A DNA stretch of 64,000 bases from Mycolicibacter hiberniae (lineage in GTDB: Bacteria > Actinomycetota > Actinomycetes > Mycobacteriales > Mycobacteriaceae): positions 2,914,001 to 2,978,000 of the forward strand of contig NZ_AP022609.1 in NCBI RefSeq assembly GCF_010729485.1, written 5' to 3'. Made by a program: the position numbers and the translations under genes. Every line of letters starts with the position of its first letter. The first letter of the stretch is position 1. The notes beneath the pieces were generated by a model that saw nothing but the letters and a program-made list of their open reading frames with translations, was not told the origin of the DNA and did not search any database. Below, piece by piece: positions 46,989 to 52,166 of this stretch.

Positions 46989-47372
46989 CTAGTCCTGCTG
47001 GGCAATCCGCTCGTTATGGATGCGCACCAGTTCCCGGAAACGCAGCCGGTGGTAGTGGGGTACGGGCTGGATGCCCCATTCGTCTTGCGCACTGGCTTTG
47101 CCGGCGGCCCCTTCGGGTGGCCCGAGCGGCGGGTAGGGATACTTGCACTCCAGGGTGTCGTCGGAGAAGCGGGTCTTGAGCAGTTCGCTGCAGATCTCTG
47201 TGAGGCTCAGCGTCGGATAGCCGTAGTAGACCGCCATGAACGGCAGGGTGAAGGCGCCCTCGATCACCAGCGCCACCAAACACACCAGGGTGGCCCGCTT
47301 GATCCAGGTGTGCATCCGGGCGTAGTAGGGGGTGGTGCCCGGCGGCAGCGCTTCGGTAGCAGGTGTTGTCAT
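46989..47372 (-). CDS. Small single-pass membrane protein of unknown family
   Basis: This 127-residue protein has one transmembrane helix (about residues 26-50, [23 protein letters not shown]). A C-terminal region of about 75 residues follows, with two cysteines, a PPLGPPEG turn, and a histidine cluster ([17 protein letters not shown]). I do not recognise the family. It is the last gene of the minus-strand operon, 15 bp after a multi-pass membrane protein, with AAGGAG before the ATG at 47372. The His/Cys-bearing tail is a plausible metal site or docking arm for the neighbouring complex, which is inference. Confidence 0.75.
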
Positions 47373-47387
47373 CGTTGGGCTCCTTGA

Positions 47388-48089
47388 TCAGTCGGAGAAG
47401 ATCTCCCGGTTGACGGTGTGCAGGTAGGGGATGGCCAAAAACGGTGTGATGTAGAAGATGTCGTAGAGCCACCAGCCGATCACCGGGAACACCACGCCGG
47501 CGTAGCGCACATCGGCATACATGGTCATGTTGAACACGTAGAGAATCCAGATGAGTACGCCCATCCAGCAGGTGACGATCATCCATTGGTGACCCCAGCG
47601 CTTCATCTGCAGGAATCCGATCGCCGCCGCGCAGCGCATCGCAAAAACGGTGAGGATCATGCCGAAGACCATGGACTTCTCGCCGGGCCCGGCTGAGCCC
47701 CCGATCCACAACTCGTTGTAGTGCCAGAAGTAGCCGGCGTCGAACATCCCGCCCCAGCCGATCATCAGGACCCGGTTGATCAGGGTGTGGTTGGCGACCA
47801 GGTCCAGCGCCCACCCGAGACTGTTGAGGGCACCGTCGATCAACACCAGATAGCCGATCAGGGTGACGATCATGGGCCGTACTGCCAAACCCGCCTGCAG
47901 CGATTGCCGCTGCAGCCAGACCCCGCGCAGGAAGACCGGCAGACCGATGATGCCCGGCACCCACATGCCCATCAGCGCCGCGCCGGCGATCATCCAGCGG
48001 TCCGCCCGGCGTTGGGCGGTGCGCGATAGCGTCTCGTGCTCCTCGATCCCGGCGAAGTCCGCCGTGGAGCCCTGCACGGTTGGCCTCAC
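47388..48089 (-). CDS. Multi-pass membrane protein, paralogue 2 (weakly AveC/spirocyclase-like)
   Basis: This 233-residue integral membrane protein has about six transmembrane helices. Conserved blocks shared with the paralogue at 50687 are MFDAGYFWHYNELWIGG, AIGFLQMKRWGHQW, NMTMYADVRYAG, and the C-terminal PFLAIPYLHTVNREIF. Histidines in FWHY, WGHQ and YLHT lie at or near predicted membrane segments and could bind a metal or haem. I recall only a weak resemblance to the AveC spirocyclase family, so the function is open. The GTG at 48089 overlaps the TGA of the 42-residue peptide gene (GTGA), which indicates coupled translation. Its 3' part is nearly identical in DNA to the paralogue's. Confidence 0.8.
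   Translation of the reverse strand: MRPTVQGSTADFAGIEEHETLSRTAQRRADRWMIAGAALMGMWVPGIIGLPVFLRGVWLQRQSLQAGLAVRPMIVTLIGYLVLIDGALNSLGWALDLVANHTLINRVLMIGWGGMFDAGYFWHYNELWIGGSAGPGEKSMVFGMILTVFAMRCAAAIGFLQMKRWGHQWMIVTCWMGVLIWILYVFNMTMYADVRYAGVVFPVIGWWLYDIFYITPFLAIPYLHTVNREIFSD
47434..47531 (-). repeat. 98-bp tract identical to 50733-50830
   Basis: This stretch in the 3' part of paralogue 2 matches paralogue 1 at all 98 bases, including third codon positions. Both sides of the tract differ at wobble bases. The pattern points to recent gene conversion or very strong constraint. Confidence 0.8.
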
Positions 48090-48214
48090 AGCTGCCACCA
48101 ACCCCGGGCGAACGACATGTAGAGCTGAATGCCGAACATGATCGCCAGATAGCCGTAGATGAAGATCTGAAAGACGATGAGGGCTCTTTTGCGATTGCGT
48201 TCCTGCTGATCCAT
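48086..48214 (-). CDS. 42-residue single-helix membrane peptide
   Basis: This small gene encodes a charged head (MDQQERNRKRA), one hydrophobic helix (LIVFQIFIYGYLAIMFGIQLYM) and a short aromatic tail (ARGWWQL). AGGAAAGGAAG precedes the ATG at 48214. It fits exactly between the NorQ-type ATPase and the second multi-pass membrane protein, whose GTG start overlaps its stop. A similar mini-protein follows the first multi-pass paralogue. Such peptides are typical accessory subunits of membrane enzyme complexes. No family is recognised. Confidence 0.78.
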   Translation of the reverse strand: MDQQERNRKRALIVFQIFIYGYLAIMFGIQLYMSFARGWWQL

Positions 48215-48231
48215 TTCTGCGACTTCCTTTC

Positions 48232-49017
48232 CTAGGGGCGCTCGCTGATCACGCCGGCTGCCACTTCACGTAGGCCGTCATGGATTGCGCCATCGGTGGT
48301 CAGTGGCGCGAGGATGCATGCTTGAGCGGCTTCGAACTCGCCCGCACCGGCGGCCACCAGTTCCGCGGCATTGACCAGCGTGCGGGTGGAGGGCGGTTCG
48401 AAATGAAACGCCTGATCGGCGGTGCGCAGCGCCGTGGCGCATTGCACCAGACGGGCGGCGATCTGCGGCTCGACGCCGGTTTCGGCGACGATCACCGCGG
48501 CTTCGCGCTCCGGTGGCAGATAGTCCATGGGCAGCGTGGCGAACCGCTGACGGAAGGACGGCTTGAGCTCCTTGAGCGAGCTCCGGTACGCCGGGTTGTA
48601 GGAGCAGACCAGCATGAAGGTGTCCGGGGCGTTGACAGTTTCGGCGGCACGATCCAAGAACAAGGTGCGCCGATGATCGGTCAGCGAGTGCAGTACGGCC
48701 AGCGAGTCGTGCCGCGCCTCGACGACTTCGTCGAGATAGCAGATCGCACCGGTCTTCACCGCCGTGGTCAGCGGCCCGTCGGTCCACACCACATCGCCAC
48801 CGGCCACCATGAACCGGCCCACCAGATCCGAGCTGGTCAGATCATCGTGGCAGCTGATGGTGATCACCGGGCGCCCCAGCAGTTGGCCCATGTGCTCGAC
48901 GAGGCGGGTCTTGCCGCAGCCGGTGGGACCGGTGAGCATCACCGGGATGCGGCGCAGGTACGCCTTCTCGAACAACTGCACTTCATTGCCGTTGGCGAAG
49001 TAGACATCGCTGCTCAT
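48232..49017 (-). CDS. MoxR-type AAA+ ATPase, CbbQ/NirQ/NorQ family
   Basis: This 261-residue ATPase has Walker A at residues 30-37 (GPTGCGKT), Walker B near residue 95 (CYLDEVVEA) and a sensor-1 segment (LVCSYNPAYRSS). It continues through a C-terminal VWA-interacting lid. In this family the ATPase works with a VWA-domain partner to insert metals into, or remodel, an enzyme: CbbQ on Rubisco, NorQ on nitric-oxide reductase. The partner here is the gene 22 bp upstream. No Rubisco or NorBC genes are present; the neighbouring membrane proteins are the likely client. It acts in the cytoplasm at the membrane face. Confidence 0.92.
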   Translation of the reverse strand: MSSDVYFANGNEVQLFEKAYLRRIPVMLTGPTGCGKTRLVEHMGQLLGRPVITISCHDDLTSSDLVGRFMVAGGDVVWTDGPLTTAVKTGAICYLDEVVEARHDSLAVLHSLTDHRRTLFLDRAAETVNAPDTFMLVCSYNPAYRSSLKELKPSFRQRFATLPMDYLPPEREAAVIVAETGVEPQIAARLVQCATALRTADQAFHFEPPSTRTLVNAAELVAAGAGEFEAAQACILAPLTTDGAIHDGLREVAAGVISERP

Positions 49018-49039
49018 TGCGATCCTTGCACGTCGTCGG

Positions 49040-50548
49040 TCATGCTGCGGTCAGTTCGCGGTGCACGTGGGCCAGTACTCGCGGTAGCTCCGCGGCCCGC
49101 CGAATCCGTTGGGAGCGGCGCGGTCCGAACACCTCGGGAAGCGGGTCGACCCGTACGGGACCGACGCCGACGTAGTACACGCACACCCCTGCTTGATCGG
49201 CTTCGGCGACGGCATGGGCCACATCGGCCCACGCATATCGGCCTTCATAGCCCTCATCGGACATCAGGCCGTCGCCGATCATCAGAAGTAGCCGCCGCTG
49301 CCCGGGTTGTGTCAGCAGCCGGCTGGTCAGATGGCGCAGCGGCGCACCCAGGCGGGTATAACCACCGGCGATCAGGCCCAGCCCGCTCGGCGCTACGAAC
49401 CTGCGGTCGCCGAAGTCCTTGAGGCAATGCACCTCTACGCGGTGGCGCGTGTTGCCGGTGAAGGCAAAGATGCCATGGCGCTGCCGTGCACCGGTCATCG
49501 CTGCCGAGAGTGCATCAGCGCAGGCGAGCTCCAGTCCGAACAACCGACCCCCGTGCGCCCCCAGCGACGAGCTCGCGTCCAGCAGCACCGCGGTGGTCAC
49601 GTCCCGGCTCGCCGGCAGCAATTCCCGGAAGATCCGCGGCTCTTCGGCTTGCCCGGCCAAGACGTCGAGGCGGTGGCTGACATAGGCGTCGACGTCAAGA
49701 TCGCATCCGTCGACAAGGCGATTGGTCATGGCCCGAACCGTGGGTTGTTCGAACCACTTACGCAGGTCGACCGCGGCTGCCGAGGGTTGGCCGGCCGATG
49801 TTCGGCGGCTGAGTTCGATGACGGCGACGTGGTCGGGCAGCAGGCTGCCGGTGTGGGTGTTCCACTCCGGGTACGGGATGCCCGGCCGCCGGTCGCGGCC
49901 GATGAAACGATCGTCCTCTTCGGGCCGGCTGGGCGGCGGCAACGCGGTGTTGCGAACTCCCCCGTCCCCGCCGACCGGAATCGAATAGGGCCGGGGGCGC
50001 CGCTTCTGGTTGCTGGACCACGGCATTCGGCCGGCCCGGCGCACCGATGAGCTCAAGCTCTGCGGTGTCGTCCACGCGGACGGCAGGGCCCCTATCAAGG
50101 GGTGGGCGGTCAGTGGTCGCCGGCTACGCGCCAGCTCGACAGCGCGGTCGAACATCTCGGCGGCCGGCATGTCGGCATCGCCGGGATCGAGATCCGGCAG
50201 CACCCGCTGCAGCTCGCCCATCAGACCCGGCCACCGCCCGGCGATCCAGTCCACGGCGACCTGCGCCTCGATGAGGGTCAGTGCCCGACGCTCGCGTGGC
50301 GAGAGGTCCCCCAGCTGATACTGCGCGATGCGCTCCTTGGACGGCGAGCACTGCAGCGCCACCCCGCAGCTCACCGTCCGCCTGGTCCAGCCGGGCTCGC
50401 CTGGGTGGGGCACATAGACAGTGGACAGGTTCGGGTTCAGGCCGAAGCTTCGCTGCGCGCCGGTCAGCAACCGCGCTCCGTCGCGGCGCCCGCCGCTGAG
50501 CGCGACGGCCGTCAGCGCGCAGCTGCTCTCCAGCGCCATCGGGTGCAT
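49040..50548 (-). CDS. NorD-like von Willebrand factor A domain protein
   Basis: This 502-residue protein has a C-terminal VWA domain with the MIDAS start LLDASSSLG (D324, S326, S328), a conserved Thr in GGYTRLGAPLRHL and the Asp in MIGDGLMSDEG. The N-terminal 300 residues are helical and family-specific. Together with a NorQ/CbbQ ATPase it forms a metal-dependent chaperone that activates a client enzyme. The order is VWA gene first and then ATPase, the reverse of many norQD loci. Two ATG codons (50548, 50539) are possible starts; neither has a strong ribosome-binding site, and the gene lies 12 bp after the mini-protein. Confidence 0.87.
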   Translation of the reverse strand: MHPMALESSCALTAVALSGGRRDGARLLTGAQRSFGLNPNLSTVYVPHPGEPGWTRRTVSCGVALQCSPSKERIAQYQLGDLSPRERRALTLIEAQVAVDWIAGRWPGLMGELQRVLPDLDPGDADMPAAEMFDRAVELARSRRPLTAHPLIGALPSAWTTPQSLSSSVRRAGRMPWSSNQKRRPRPYSIPVGGDGGVRNTALPPPSRPEEDDRFIGRDRRPGIPYPEWNTHTGSLLPDHVAVIELSRRTSAGQPSAAAVDLRKWFEQPTVRAMTNRLVDGCDLDVDAYVSHRLDVLAGQAEEPRIFRELLPASRDVTTAVLLDASSSLGAHGGRLFGLELACADALSAAMTGARQRHGIFAFTGNTRHRVEVHCLKDFGDRRFVAPSGLGLIAGGYTRLGAPLRHLTSRLLTQPGQRRLLLMIGDGLMSDEGYEGRYAWADVAHAVAEADQAGVCVYYVGVGPVRVDPLPEVFGPRRSQRIRRAAELPRVLAHVHRELTAA

Positions 50549-50560
50549 GTCTGACGTGGT

Positions 50561-50665
50561 TCAGAAGGTCCCGATGCTGGAGAACATCCAGTACCAGAAC
50601 GCGATGATCAAACAGGTCCCGCCCCATGCGGCGACGTAGCGGAGAATCTCCCAGAGCCAGGTCAT
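50561..50665 (-). CDS. 34-residue single-helix membrane peptide
   Basis: This short gene lies between the first multi-pass protein and the NorD-like gene. The product is almost entirely one hydrophobic helix with tryptophans at both ends (MTWLWEILRYVAAWGG, then TCLIIAFWYWMFSSIG). AAGGAGACG lies upstream of the ATG at 50665. Its position matches that of the 42-residue peptide beside the other multi-pass paralogue, so each large membrane protein seems to have its own mini-subunit. It is too short for family assignment. Confidence 0.72.
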   Translation of the reverse strand: MTWLWEILRYVAAWGGTCLIIAFWYWMFSSIGTF

Positions 50666-50686
50666 CGTCGTCTCCTTGGTGTCTTG

Positions 50687-51403
50687 TCAGTCGGCGAAGA
50701 TCTCGCGGTTGACGGTGTGCAGGTAGGGGATCGCCAAAAACGGTGTGATGTAGAAGATGTCGTAGAGCCACCAGCCGATCACCGGGAACACCACGCCGGC
50801 GTAGCGCACATCGGCATACATGGTCATGTTCAACACGTAGCCGACCCAGATCAGCACACCCATCCAGCAGGTCACCACCATCCACTGGTGACCCCAACGC
50901 TTCATCTGCAGGAACCCGATTGCCGCCGCGATGCGCATGGTGAAGACGGTGAAGATCAGGCCGACCTCCCAGCCCTTCTCGCCCGGGCCGGCCGCCCCGC
51001 CGATCCACAGCTCGTTGTAGTGCCAGAAATAGCCGGCGTCGAACATCGCACCCCAGCCGTTGAGCAGCACCCGGGCCAGCAGGGTGTGGTTGGCCACCGT
51101 GTCCAGGGCCCACCCCACGGCGTTGATCGCGGCATCGATGATGACCAGGTAGCCCAGCAACGTCACGAGCATCGGCCGCACGGTCAGCCCGTCGCGTTGA
51201 GCCTTGCGCTGCAACCAGATTCCGCGCAGGAACAGCGGCAGGCCGAAGACACCGGCCGCCGCGGTACCGATCAGCATGCCGCCGCTGATCAACCAGCGGT
51301 CGGCACGCCGCTGGGCCGCATGGGACAGCTCCAGGTGCTCGTCCAGCCCGAGCCCGTCGTGGTGTTGCTGCGATGCGGTTCGCACGGGGCCACCCCTCGC
51401 CAT
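50687..51403 (-). CDS. Multi-pass membrane protein, paralogue 1 (weakly AveC/spirocyclase-like)
   Basis: This 238-residue integral membrane protein is closely related to the one at 47388. It has about six transmembrane helices and the shared blocks MFDAGYFWHYNELWIGG, MKRWGHQW, MYADVRYAG and YLHTVNREIF. The N-terminal 60 residues diverge most. Keeping two linked paralogues suggests a heterodimeric membrane enzyme or pore, as in two-subunit membrane oxidases. ATG at 51403 is preferred over an upstream TTG. It is the first structural gene after the TetR, and a perfect palindrome begins 34 bp upstream of its start. Catalytic function is unassigned. Confidence 0.8.
   Translation of the reverse strand: MARGGPVRTASQQHHDGLGLDEHLELSHAAQRRADRWLISGGMLIGTAAAGVFGLPLFLRGIWLQRKAQRDGLTVRPMLVTLLGYLVIIDAAINAVGWALDTVANHTLLARVLLNGWGAMFDAGYFWHYNELWIGGAAGPGEKGWEVGLIFTVFTMRIAAAIGFLQMKRWGHQWMVVTCWMGVLIWVGYVLNMTMYADVRYAGVVFPVIGWWLYDIFYITPFLAIPYLHTVNREIFAD
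50733..50830 (-). repeat. 98-bp tract identical to 47434-47531
   Basis: This is the partner copy of the identical tract in paralogue 1. Mismatches resume at 50732 and 50831. Length and total identity, against diverged flanks, favour a recent conversion event between the two genes 3.3 kb apart. Confidence 0.8.
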
Positions 51404-51436
51404 GTTGGACAACGCCTACGACGGTAGGGCCGTCAC

Positions 51437-51448
51437 TGACTTAAGTCA
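51437..51448. promoter_or_regulatory. Perfect palindromic operator TGACTTAAGTCA (copy 1)
   Basis: This 12-bp perfect palindrome overlaps the stop codon of the TetR gene and lies 34 bp before the ATG of the first membrane-protein gene. With flanking CA/TG it extends to an 18-bp near-palindrome. The same 12 bases recur at 52155 upstream of the TetR, so this is very likely the TetR binding site for the structural part of the operon. Confidence 0.7.
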
Positions 51449-52075
51449 ATGACTTTCGGGCGGCCTCCGCACACCGAGCCCTCGGAGCGTTCTGGTCAGG
51501 TAATCGGCGACCAACTCCGGACGCGAGGGCCAGTCATGCGTGGTGATGAGCAGTGCATACAGACCCAGCAGGTAAAACACCGCGCTGTTCATCGCGACGA
51601 CGTCGCCGTCGACCTCGCCGCGCTGCCTTGCCCGTTCGATGCATTCGGCGATCAGAACGATCAACGGATGATGCTCGCCGTTTTCGGCGGATGGGCGGGT
51701 CGGCGAGAAGTGCAGTGCCAGAAACTCGGTGAACAGCGGGTCGCCCAGCCGGCTCTCCAGGTCGATGACCAGGCGGGCAGATTCGGCCAAAATGCCCGAG
51801 AGGTCCTGGGGCGCAGACAGGAACTTCTCGAACTGCTTGGCGATTCGCTCTTCCTCTCGGCGTTCGAGCTCCAGCAGCACATGCTCTTTGGTCGGGAAGT
51901 GGAAGAAGAACGTGCCGTGCGCGACGCCGGCGGCAGCCACAATCGCGCCGACGTCGGCCTGGGCCATCCCGGTTCGCTTGAATTCGGCGGTCGCCGCGCC
52001 GAGCAGCCGCTCCCGGGTCTGCAGGCGCCGGACCTCGCGCGCCGTCATCTTCTCCGGCTTGTCCGCCACGGCCAT
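51446..52075 (-). CDS. TetR-family regulator of the membrane-protein/NorQD operon
   Basis: This 209-residue regulator has an N-terminal helix-turn-helix (MAQADVGAIVAAAGVAHGTFFFHFPTK), a family-typical recognition helix with FFFHF, and a helical ligand domain. It is transcribed in the same direction as the genes that follow. Perfect TGACTTAAGTCA palindromes lie 80 bp before its start and across its stop. It probably represses itself and the operon until a ligand is present. The ligand may be the substrate of the membrane enzyme. The 159-bp gap before it holds the palindrome and no other gene. Confidence 0.86.
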   Translation of the reverse strand: MAVADKPEKMTAREVRRLQTRERLLGAATAEFKRTGMAQADVGAIVAAAGVAHGTFFFHFPTKEHVLLELERREEERIAKQFEKFLSAPQDLSGILAESARLVIDLESRLGDPLFTEFLALHFSPTRPSAENGEHHPLIVLIAECIERARQRGEVDGDVVAMNSAVFYLLGLYALLITTHDWPSRPELVADYLTRTLRGLGVRRPPESH

Positions 52076-52154
52076 GCCCTGCCCCTCCGCCCGCCGACTC
52101 TGCAGGCCTCGCAGTGATGACAGTATCGCCTCACCAGGAGCGGGCGCATTCGAT

Positions 52155-52166
52155 GACTTAAGTCAG
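52155..52166. promoter_or_regulatory. Perfect palindromic operator TGACTTAAGTCA (copy 2)
   Basis: The same 12-bp perfect palindrome as at 51437 stands 80 bp upstream of the TetR start. It lies in the gap between the TetR and the stop of the FadD3-like ligase. It probably mediates autoregulation. Confidence 0.7.

Follow-up and report, generated by a model that had tools for sequence, protein, structure and literature searches.

A mycobacterial operon linking predicted EXPERA-fold membrane proteins to a NorQ/NorD-type chaperone pair

Introduction

The best-studied chaperone pairs of the NorQ/NorD type are NorQ/NorD, with nitric oxide reductase (NOR) as target, and CbbQ/CbbO, with Rubisco as target; to our knowledge, Rubisco activation by CbbQO involves no metal insertion. 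NorQ/NorD are reported to insert FeB into the cytochrome c-dependent nitric oxide reductase cNOR (PMC13036017, PMC9976466), and the closely similar CbbQO pair is described as a Rubisco activase (PMC13036017). The model proposed there has NorD hold cNOR via its N-terminal domain and via its metal-ion-dependent adhesion site (MIDAS) or linker (PMC13036017). In this study, we analysed a 64,000-nt stretch of Mycolicibacter hiberniae NZ_AP022609.1 (genome 4.4 Mb, single contig), hereafter the window, in which a NorQ/NorD-like pair shares an operon with two multi-pass membrane proteins, mp1 and mp2, of predicted EXPERA fold and with three small single-pass proteins, p34, p42 and s127. The pairing of chaperones and mp proteins is well supported, and the latter look like a probable new class of client.

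The EXPERA superfamily includes the sterol delta8-delta7 isomerase EBP, TMEM97 and TM6SF2; according to PMC4263179, acidic positions 80 and 108 of EBP are kept across the superfamily, and EBP D108, TMEM97 D56 and TM6SF2 E101/E255 are named as its acidic residues. That mycobacteria carry EXPERA genes has been noted before (PMC9903846), and in Mycobacterium sp. UM_CSW three EBP-like hypothetical proteins occur in a genomic island, alongside TetR and a probable cholesterol dehydrogenase (PMC4818103). That island differs from our locus in that NorQ and NorD are not named in the passages considered and 'von Willebrand' is absent from the main text, and it is likened here by description, not by sequence. 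AveC, a second membrane protein type relevant below, catalyses spiroketalisation and dehydration (PMC13303154). No link of EXPERA/EBP-like or AveC-like proteins to NorQ/NorD was found in the literature searched, a body that lies outside most subscription journals and bioRxiv preprints.

Results and discussion

Operon architecture and conservation

The preliminary description of this locus had read it as an eight-gene operon and had named conserved synteny as a check on that reading. All eight minus-strand open reading frames (ORFs) lie where it had placed them, running from 52075 to 46989:

51446..52075, minus strand: TetR-family regulator, first gene of the operon (TetR_N, 41.5 bits)
50687..51412, minus strand: mp1, predicted EXPERA-fold multi-pass membrane protein, 241 aa, TTG start (AF2 model, PDB fold matches, homologues)
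50561..50665, minus strand: p34, single-pass peptide, 34 aa (found across loci; pN/pS)
49040..50548, minus strand: NorD-like VWA protein, 502 aa (match to solved NorD; MIDAS)
48232..49017, minus strand: NorQ-like MoxR AAA+ ATPase, 261 aa (AAA_5, CbbQ_C; solved NorQ; motifs)
48086..48214, minus strand: p42, single-pass peptide, 42 aa, with basic N-terminus (found across loci; pN/pS)
47388..48101, minus strand: mp2, predicted EXPERA-fold paralogue of mp1, 237 aa, TTG start (74% identity to mp1; single-mp operons)
46989..47372, minus strand: s127, single-pass protein, 127 aa, with conserved C-terminal tail (two Cys, PYP..GPP) (found across loci)

Intergenic gaps measure 12–33 bases throughout the operon, except for p42 and mp2, which overlap by 16 bases; the real start of mp1 may lie a few codons downstream of the listed TTG. 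The order mp-p34-NorD-NorQ-p42-mp-s127 is kept in 78 of 80 named loci (the 80 most mp1-like of 343, a choice biased towards close relatives), and the two exceptions (L039 and L066) are short pieces ending at contig ends. With 78 of 80 loci keeping it, the order is far from chance. A TetR match is present in all 80 loci; in the 78 it stands before mp1 (49), between mp1 and p34 (15) or in both places (14). The closest of the named loci listed, from which the window genome's own records are possibly excluded, is that of Mycolicibacter engbaekii, with an mp1 97% identical.

Across the phylum the distribution is patchy, mp being found in 9 of 396 genomes sampled, 8 of these among the 15 genomes of the window's family; a distant mp query was positive in 12 of 111 family genomes. 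In 249 genomes of the class of G121, a genome that shares only the phylum with the window, we searched for members of the distant mp clade and obtained only G121 itself and one short weak match. G121 carries a 101-aa single-pass gene, mp, NorD and NorQ. Within the family, four genomes (G646, G631, G694 and G050) have the operon p34-NorD-NorQ-p42-mp-s127, in which the retained mp sits in the mp2 position, between p42 and s127, and in G634 the order is NorQ-mp-p42-mp-s127. Since single-mp operons exist in relatives and in G121, we consider the second mp an addition, and the two-paralogue enzyme suggested initially does not hold as an obligatory arrangement, given the four genomes with one mp and the rest of the operon.

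The two M. hiberniae copies share 74% identity over 230 aa and 80% of their DNA over 682 columns, and a genome search at E<=0.01 gave no third copy. At their 3' ends (about 50687–50810 and 47388–47510), 29 of 30 codons are identical in one 30-codon stretch. Among codons for the same residue, the median identical fraction over 76 two-copy loci is 0.645 for codons 1–170 of 220 and rises to 0.765 over the final 45. The near-identical ends may reflect occasional gene conversion, possibly recent in M. hiberniae, of which other loci show weaker signs.

The small genes are conserved as well: with the best match taken at E<=1, p34 was found in 86 of 87 loci and p42 and s127 in 84 of 87 each. The ratio of nonsynonymous to synonymous differences (pN/pS) is 0.191 for p34 (8 chosen equal-length sequences, 28 pairs) and 0.195 for p42 (6 chosen equal-length sequences, 15 pairs); because of these low values both peptides look translated and under purifying selection, and the mini-subunits of the preliminary description are borne out as real genes. 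The only Pfam match of p34 is DUF3149, at 15 bits and under cut-off. The membrane segment of s127 can tentatively be aligned, at 22–23% identity, with the gene that accompanies the distant mp homologues. That the genes came together by chance, unrelated to one another, in a catabolic region would agree with flanking genes that vary between loci, but the order conserved across genera, the tight spacing, the purifying selection on the peptides and the co-inheritance described below leave it with next to no probability.

The chaperone pair

The NorQ-like protein matches AAA_5 with 125 bits and CbbQ_C (PF08406) with 78.6 bits (cut-offs 22 and 20.6) and carries a Walker A motif GPTGCGKT at residue 30 and a Walker B motif ICYLDE at 92. 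It scores 257.3 bits against solved NorQ (9qh4), 236–239 bits against solved CbbQ chains, and 257.9 bits against multi-domain midasin chains, a value summed over several stretches. In the NorD-like protein, Pfam VWA models stay under cut-off and the MIDAS (DxSxS-T-D) is complete (D324-S326-S328, T398, D426), with a T398–D426 spacing of 28 equal to that of T534–D562 given for Paracoccus NorD in PMC9976466. Residues 216–476 match solved NorD (9qhd_G) with 120.5 bits, and a second solved chain scores 89 bits. The phmmer alignments to solved NorD cover only residues 216–476 and 225–500, so that the N-terminal ~215 residues have no match to it.

The locus therefore resembles the cNOR system in its CbbQ_C-type AAA+ protein with Walker motifs, its VWA protein with full MIDAS and equal T–D spacing, and the 257- and 120-bit matches, as well as in its small membrane genes, comparable to norE/norF of the NOR cluster (PMC13036017). 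It differs in its EXPERA-like neighbours, the unmatched NorD N-terminus and the lack of norB beside norQ/norD, both COX1-family matches lying elsewhere in the genome and norC not having been searched for. An exchanged NorD N-terminus would, by analogy with the two-point contact of the cNOR model, fit an exchanged client. The AAA+/VWA type and the CbbQ scores are likewise shared with the CbbQ/CbbO activase, in contrast to which no Rubisco was found in the genome.

Co-inheritance of NorQ with its membrane neighbour

A second NorQ/NorD pair of the genome, absent from the preliminary description, lies directly after an AveC-like membrane protein (PF17198, 353 bits; L110:4878-8532, about 3087877–3091531), flanked on either side by Rieske oxygenase genes and with TauD nearby, a pattern that recurs in the family. 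In the 396 phylum genomes we found 57 CbbQ_C matches, 22 in the window's family and 35 outside. Within the family, an AveC-like gene is no more than 1.6 kb away from 12 of them and an mp no more than 0.24 kb away from 8, which leaves two near neither (one, in G150, has an internal stop; the other, in G325, falls in a 114-aa open frame next to a Rieske gene). Outside the family, two of the 35 fall within 4 kb, in G055 (3.4 kb from an AveC-like gene) and G121 (2.0 kb from mp), and the others stand in another setting. This proximity count was entered by 27 of the 57 matches (the window's family, G121, G055 and G046); the remaining 30 come from genomes with neither an mp nor an AveC-like match. 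AveC-like matches entered 28 of 29, one under cut-off being omitted, and 14 of these 28 have a NorQ within 6 kb.

A NorQ tree was calculated from 55 sequences; from the 80 named mp loci it draws on 10, matches of less than 200 columns having been dropped. In this tree, 18 mp-linked sequences form one side of a branch with support 100/99, and a second group (99/100) unites 13 AveC-linked sequences with one G121 gene lacking any AveC-like neighbour within 16 kb; the G121 NorQ sits on a long branch and its exact place is unsure. NorQ clades thus follow neighbour type, showing at the level of sequence co-inheritance of NorQ with mp. Together with the synteny, this ties the NorQ/NorD pair stably to the multi-pass proteins, as the preliminary description had proposed, and the neighbouring membrane proteins remain the most likely client. 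More distant actinobacterial NorQs (L172 and similar, in families f21, f22 and further ones of the phylum) have a NorD-like gene downstream, in genomes with no mp or AveC-like match, and in L172 an acyl-CoA ligase precedes the NorQ gene.

Both pairs of M. hiberniae thus share the chaperone type, but mp1 and mp2 have no match to PF17198, the AveC-like spirocyclase family, their NorQ belongs to a separate clade, and the profile comparison of AveC-like and mp proteins is not convincing (E 0.0064, probability 6%). The same holds for s127 against AveC-like proteins (E 0.022, probability 2%), and the idea that the AveC-like protein is an mp fused to s127 was dropped since these comparisons were unconvincing.

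Two sets of observations weigh against assigning the pair to its mp neighbours. The absence of NorBC and Rubisco noted in the preliminary description held for the surroundings, as the COX1-family (NorB-type) genes lie at 2.33 and 2.56 Mb, outside the window, compared with 2.96 Mb for the operon, and for Rubisco in the whole genome; it did not hold for NOR, since the 2.56-Mb gene encodes a 779-aa nitric oxide reductase scoring 476 bits against solved chains of that enzyme (L240:652-2988, 2563685–2565022 plus flanks), a protein of quinol type judging from length and matches. With cNOR the classical client of NorQ/NorD, this enzyme could be served in trans by the operon's pair, the mp linkage then being incidental. 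Secondly, the plasmid NZ_AP022607.1 of M. branderi carries an mp homologue 38% identical, in the order TetR - 82-aa - mp - DUF4286 (L212:13910-16096), and the record of this plasmid, searched without the chromosome, has no CbbQ_C match; this locus shows that mp can exist without a linked chaperone. Its surroundings are annotated with mycofactocin-coupled short-chain dehydrogenase/reductase (SDR), Rieske and acyl-CoA dehydrogenase genes, i.e. a catabolic setting. Service in trans is nevertheless very improbable in our view: the mp linkage is kept across the named loci, NorQ clades track neighbour type, the NorD N-terminal part, one proposed NOR contact point, is not recognisably kept, and the genome has the other pair beside the AveC-like gene, the reductase being linked to neither.

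Predicted fold of mp1 and mp2

Homologues of mp1 number 542 at E<=0.001, the two protein lists used covering 120 of 542 and 120 of 642 matches. An AlphaFold2 (AF2) model of mp1 from a 94-sequence alignment reached a mean predicted local distance difference test (pLDDT) score of 90.6, whereas an earlier one from 39 sequences only was poor (71). EBP and the sigma-2 receptor are the best PDB structural matches of the model, and EXPERA-type chains fill ranks 1–6. An EXPERA transmembrane fold, which the preliminary description had not foreseen, is thus reasonably supported by the model. In contrast to EBP, the model has an extra N-terminal helix, and the Pfam EBP score is absent or under cut-off: PF05241 gave no match in mp1 or mp2 at E<=1 and 19.7 bits in the distant G121 relative (curated cut-off 25.7). 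A PDB sequence search with mp1 returned three matches only (best E 0.49), one with the mp profile none, and the profile–profile comparison with EXPERA-like proteins was not convincing. NCBIfam yielded a single match for mp1, mp2, p34, p42 and s127 (E 0.2, far under cut-off) and none for the distant mp, the M. branderi mp, the AveC-like protein and the nitric oxide reductase. An enzyme resembling particulate methane or ammonia monooxygenase (pMMO/AMO), or a heme-copper enzyme, was set aside since no such entry occurs in the 50 best structural matches listed, which falls short of proof. The genome encodes a further weakly EXPERA-like membrane protein (L194:1054-1809, 1353164–1353430 plus flanks; PF05241 16.8 bits, under cut-off), to which a protein in L199 of a related genome is similar.

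Conserved residues and candidate active site

Conservation was counted over 94 mp sequences, 54 close and 40 distant. D93, N97, W101 and Y128 are invariant, and D104 and K146 (93/94 each), N133 (92/94), D125 (91/94, Glu in 2) and R160 (89/94, Lys in 4) nearly so; E145 (92/94, Asp in 2) is acidic in all. Taking the AF2 limits of helix 81–105 and 100 degrees per residue, positions 93, 97, 101 and 104 share one face. The M. branderi protein keeps D93, N97, W101, D104, D125, N133, E145, K146 and R160, with Y128 replaced by F and H131/H175/H232 by N/L/Y. The polar stripe D93/N97/W101/D104, together with D125, N133, E145 and R160, is our candidate for the likely active site. Read by eye, E145 may be the counterpart of EBP D108, and D93/N97/R160/D218/Y221 may occupy the places of EBP His76, Glu80, Glu122, Asn193 and Trp196 without being identical, H76, E80 and E122 thus seemingly not being kept.

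The His-bearing blocks formerly taken as metal ligands are specific to the close clade, H131 being found in 0, H175 in 1 and H232 in 5 of the 40 distant sequences, and owing to this poor conservation a His-based metal site is not supported and was rejected. The metalloenzyme and oxygenase readings of the preliminary description stay hypothetical. A metal could still be loaded by NorQ/NorD into a carboxylate-rich site (D93, N97, D104, D125, E145), making mp a metal-dependent EXPERA enzyme, in line with the conserved Asp/Asn/Glu positions and with the reported insertion of FeB into cNOR (PMC13036017, PMC9976466). The same carboxylates could, however, equally serve proton transfer, and the His of the blocks are not conserved. 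No EXPERA protein is known to need a metal, and the similar CbbQO activase is not known to insert one. We therefore regard metal loading as a tentative and somewhat unlikely explanation.

Catabolic setting

In 75 loci, the flanking families, defined as single-linkage clusters of which several other large ones resemble antisense shadows, include a DAP_DH_C-type oxidoreductase (61 loci), SDRs (49 and 17) and P450s (28, 21 and 18). The DAP_DH_C-domain oxidoreductase is often multi-copy per locus (L039–L108, L232–L235, L237). Scanned neighbours in the window are two acyl-CoA ligases, an SDR, an amidohydrolase, an enoyl-CoA hydratase and a thiolase. This setting fits the catabolism of lipids, sterols or terpenes but points to no particular substrate. 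As proposed for TMEM97, mp1/mp2 might instead be a sterol-binding receptor, transporter part or scaffold and no enzyme, with NorQ/NorD only assembling the complex; the near-invariant polar set in 94 sequences and the catabolic-enzyme flanks favour catalysis, leaving this possibility doubtful.

Conclusions

We propose, with moderate confidence, that the operon encodes one membrane enzyme together with its own activation machine. In this model, mp1 and mp2, with the predicted fold of EBP, would form the enzyme core and p34, p42 and s127 its small subunits, while NorQ would act as AAA+ motor and NorD as the VWA adaptor docking mp. ATP hydrolysis would remodel mp into its active form, either by inserting a metal or by only opening or clearing the site. 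As reaction we consider an isomerisation by proton transfer, a cyclisation or a (de)hydration probable, the cyclase-like role of the preliminary description fitting the predicted fold, and the substrate would probably be a hydrophobic, sterol- or terpene-like one of the neighbouring catabolic genes. More speculatively, and rather unlikely as a whole, actinobacterial NorQ/NorD clients would comprise EXPERA-like and AveC-like membrane isomerase/cyclase proteins with separate chaperone lineages, the EXPERA-like kind being metal-loaded at its carboxylate site. A metal-dependent EXPERA enzyme would be a first, and such loading would explain why small subunits and motor stay together.

If true, the links to EBP-like and AveC-like proteins would extend the clients of this chaperone type to non-respiratory membrane enzymes. 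With one membrane protein, three small subunits and two chaperones, the operon is a compact test bed for metal insertion versus remodelling. EBP and TMEM97 are drug targets, and a bacterial relative could act as a model.

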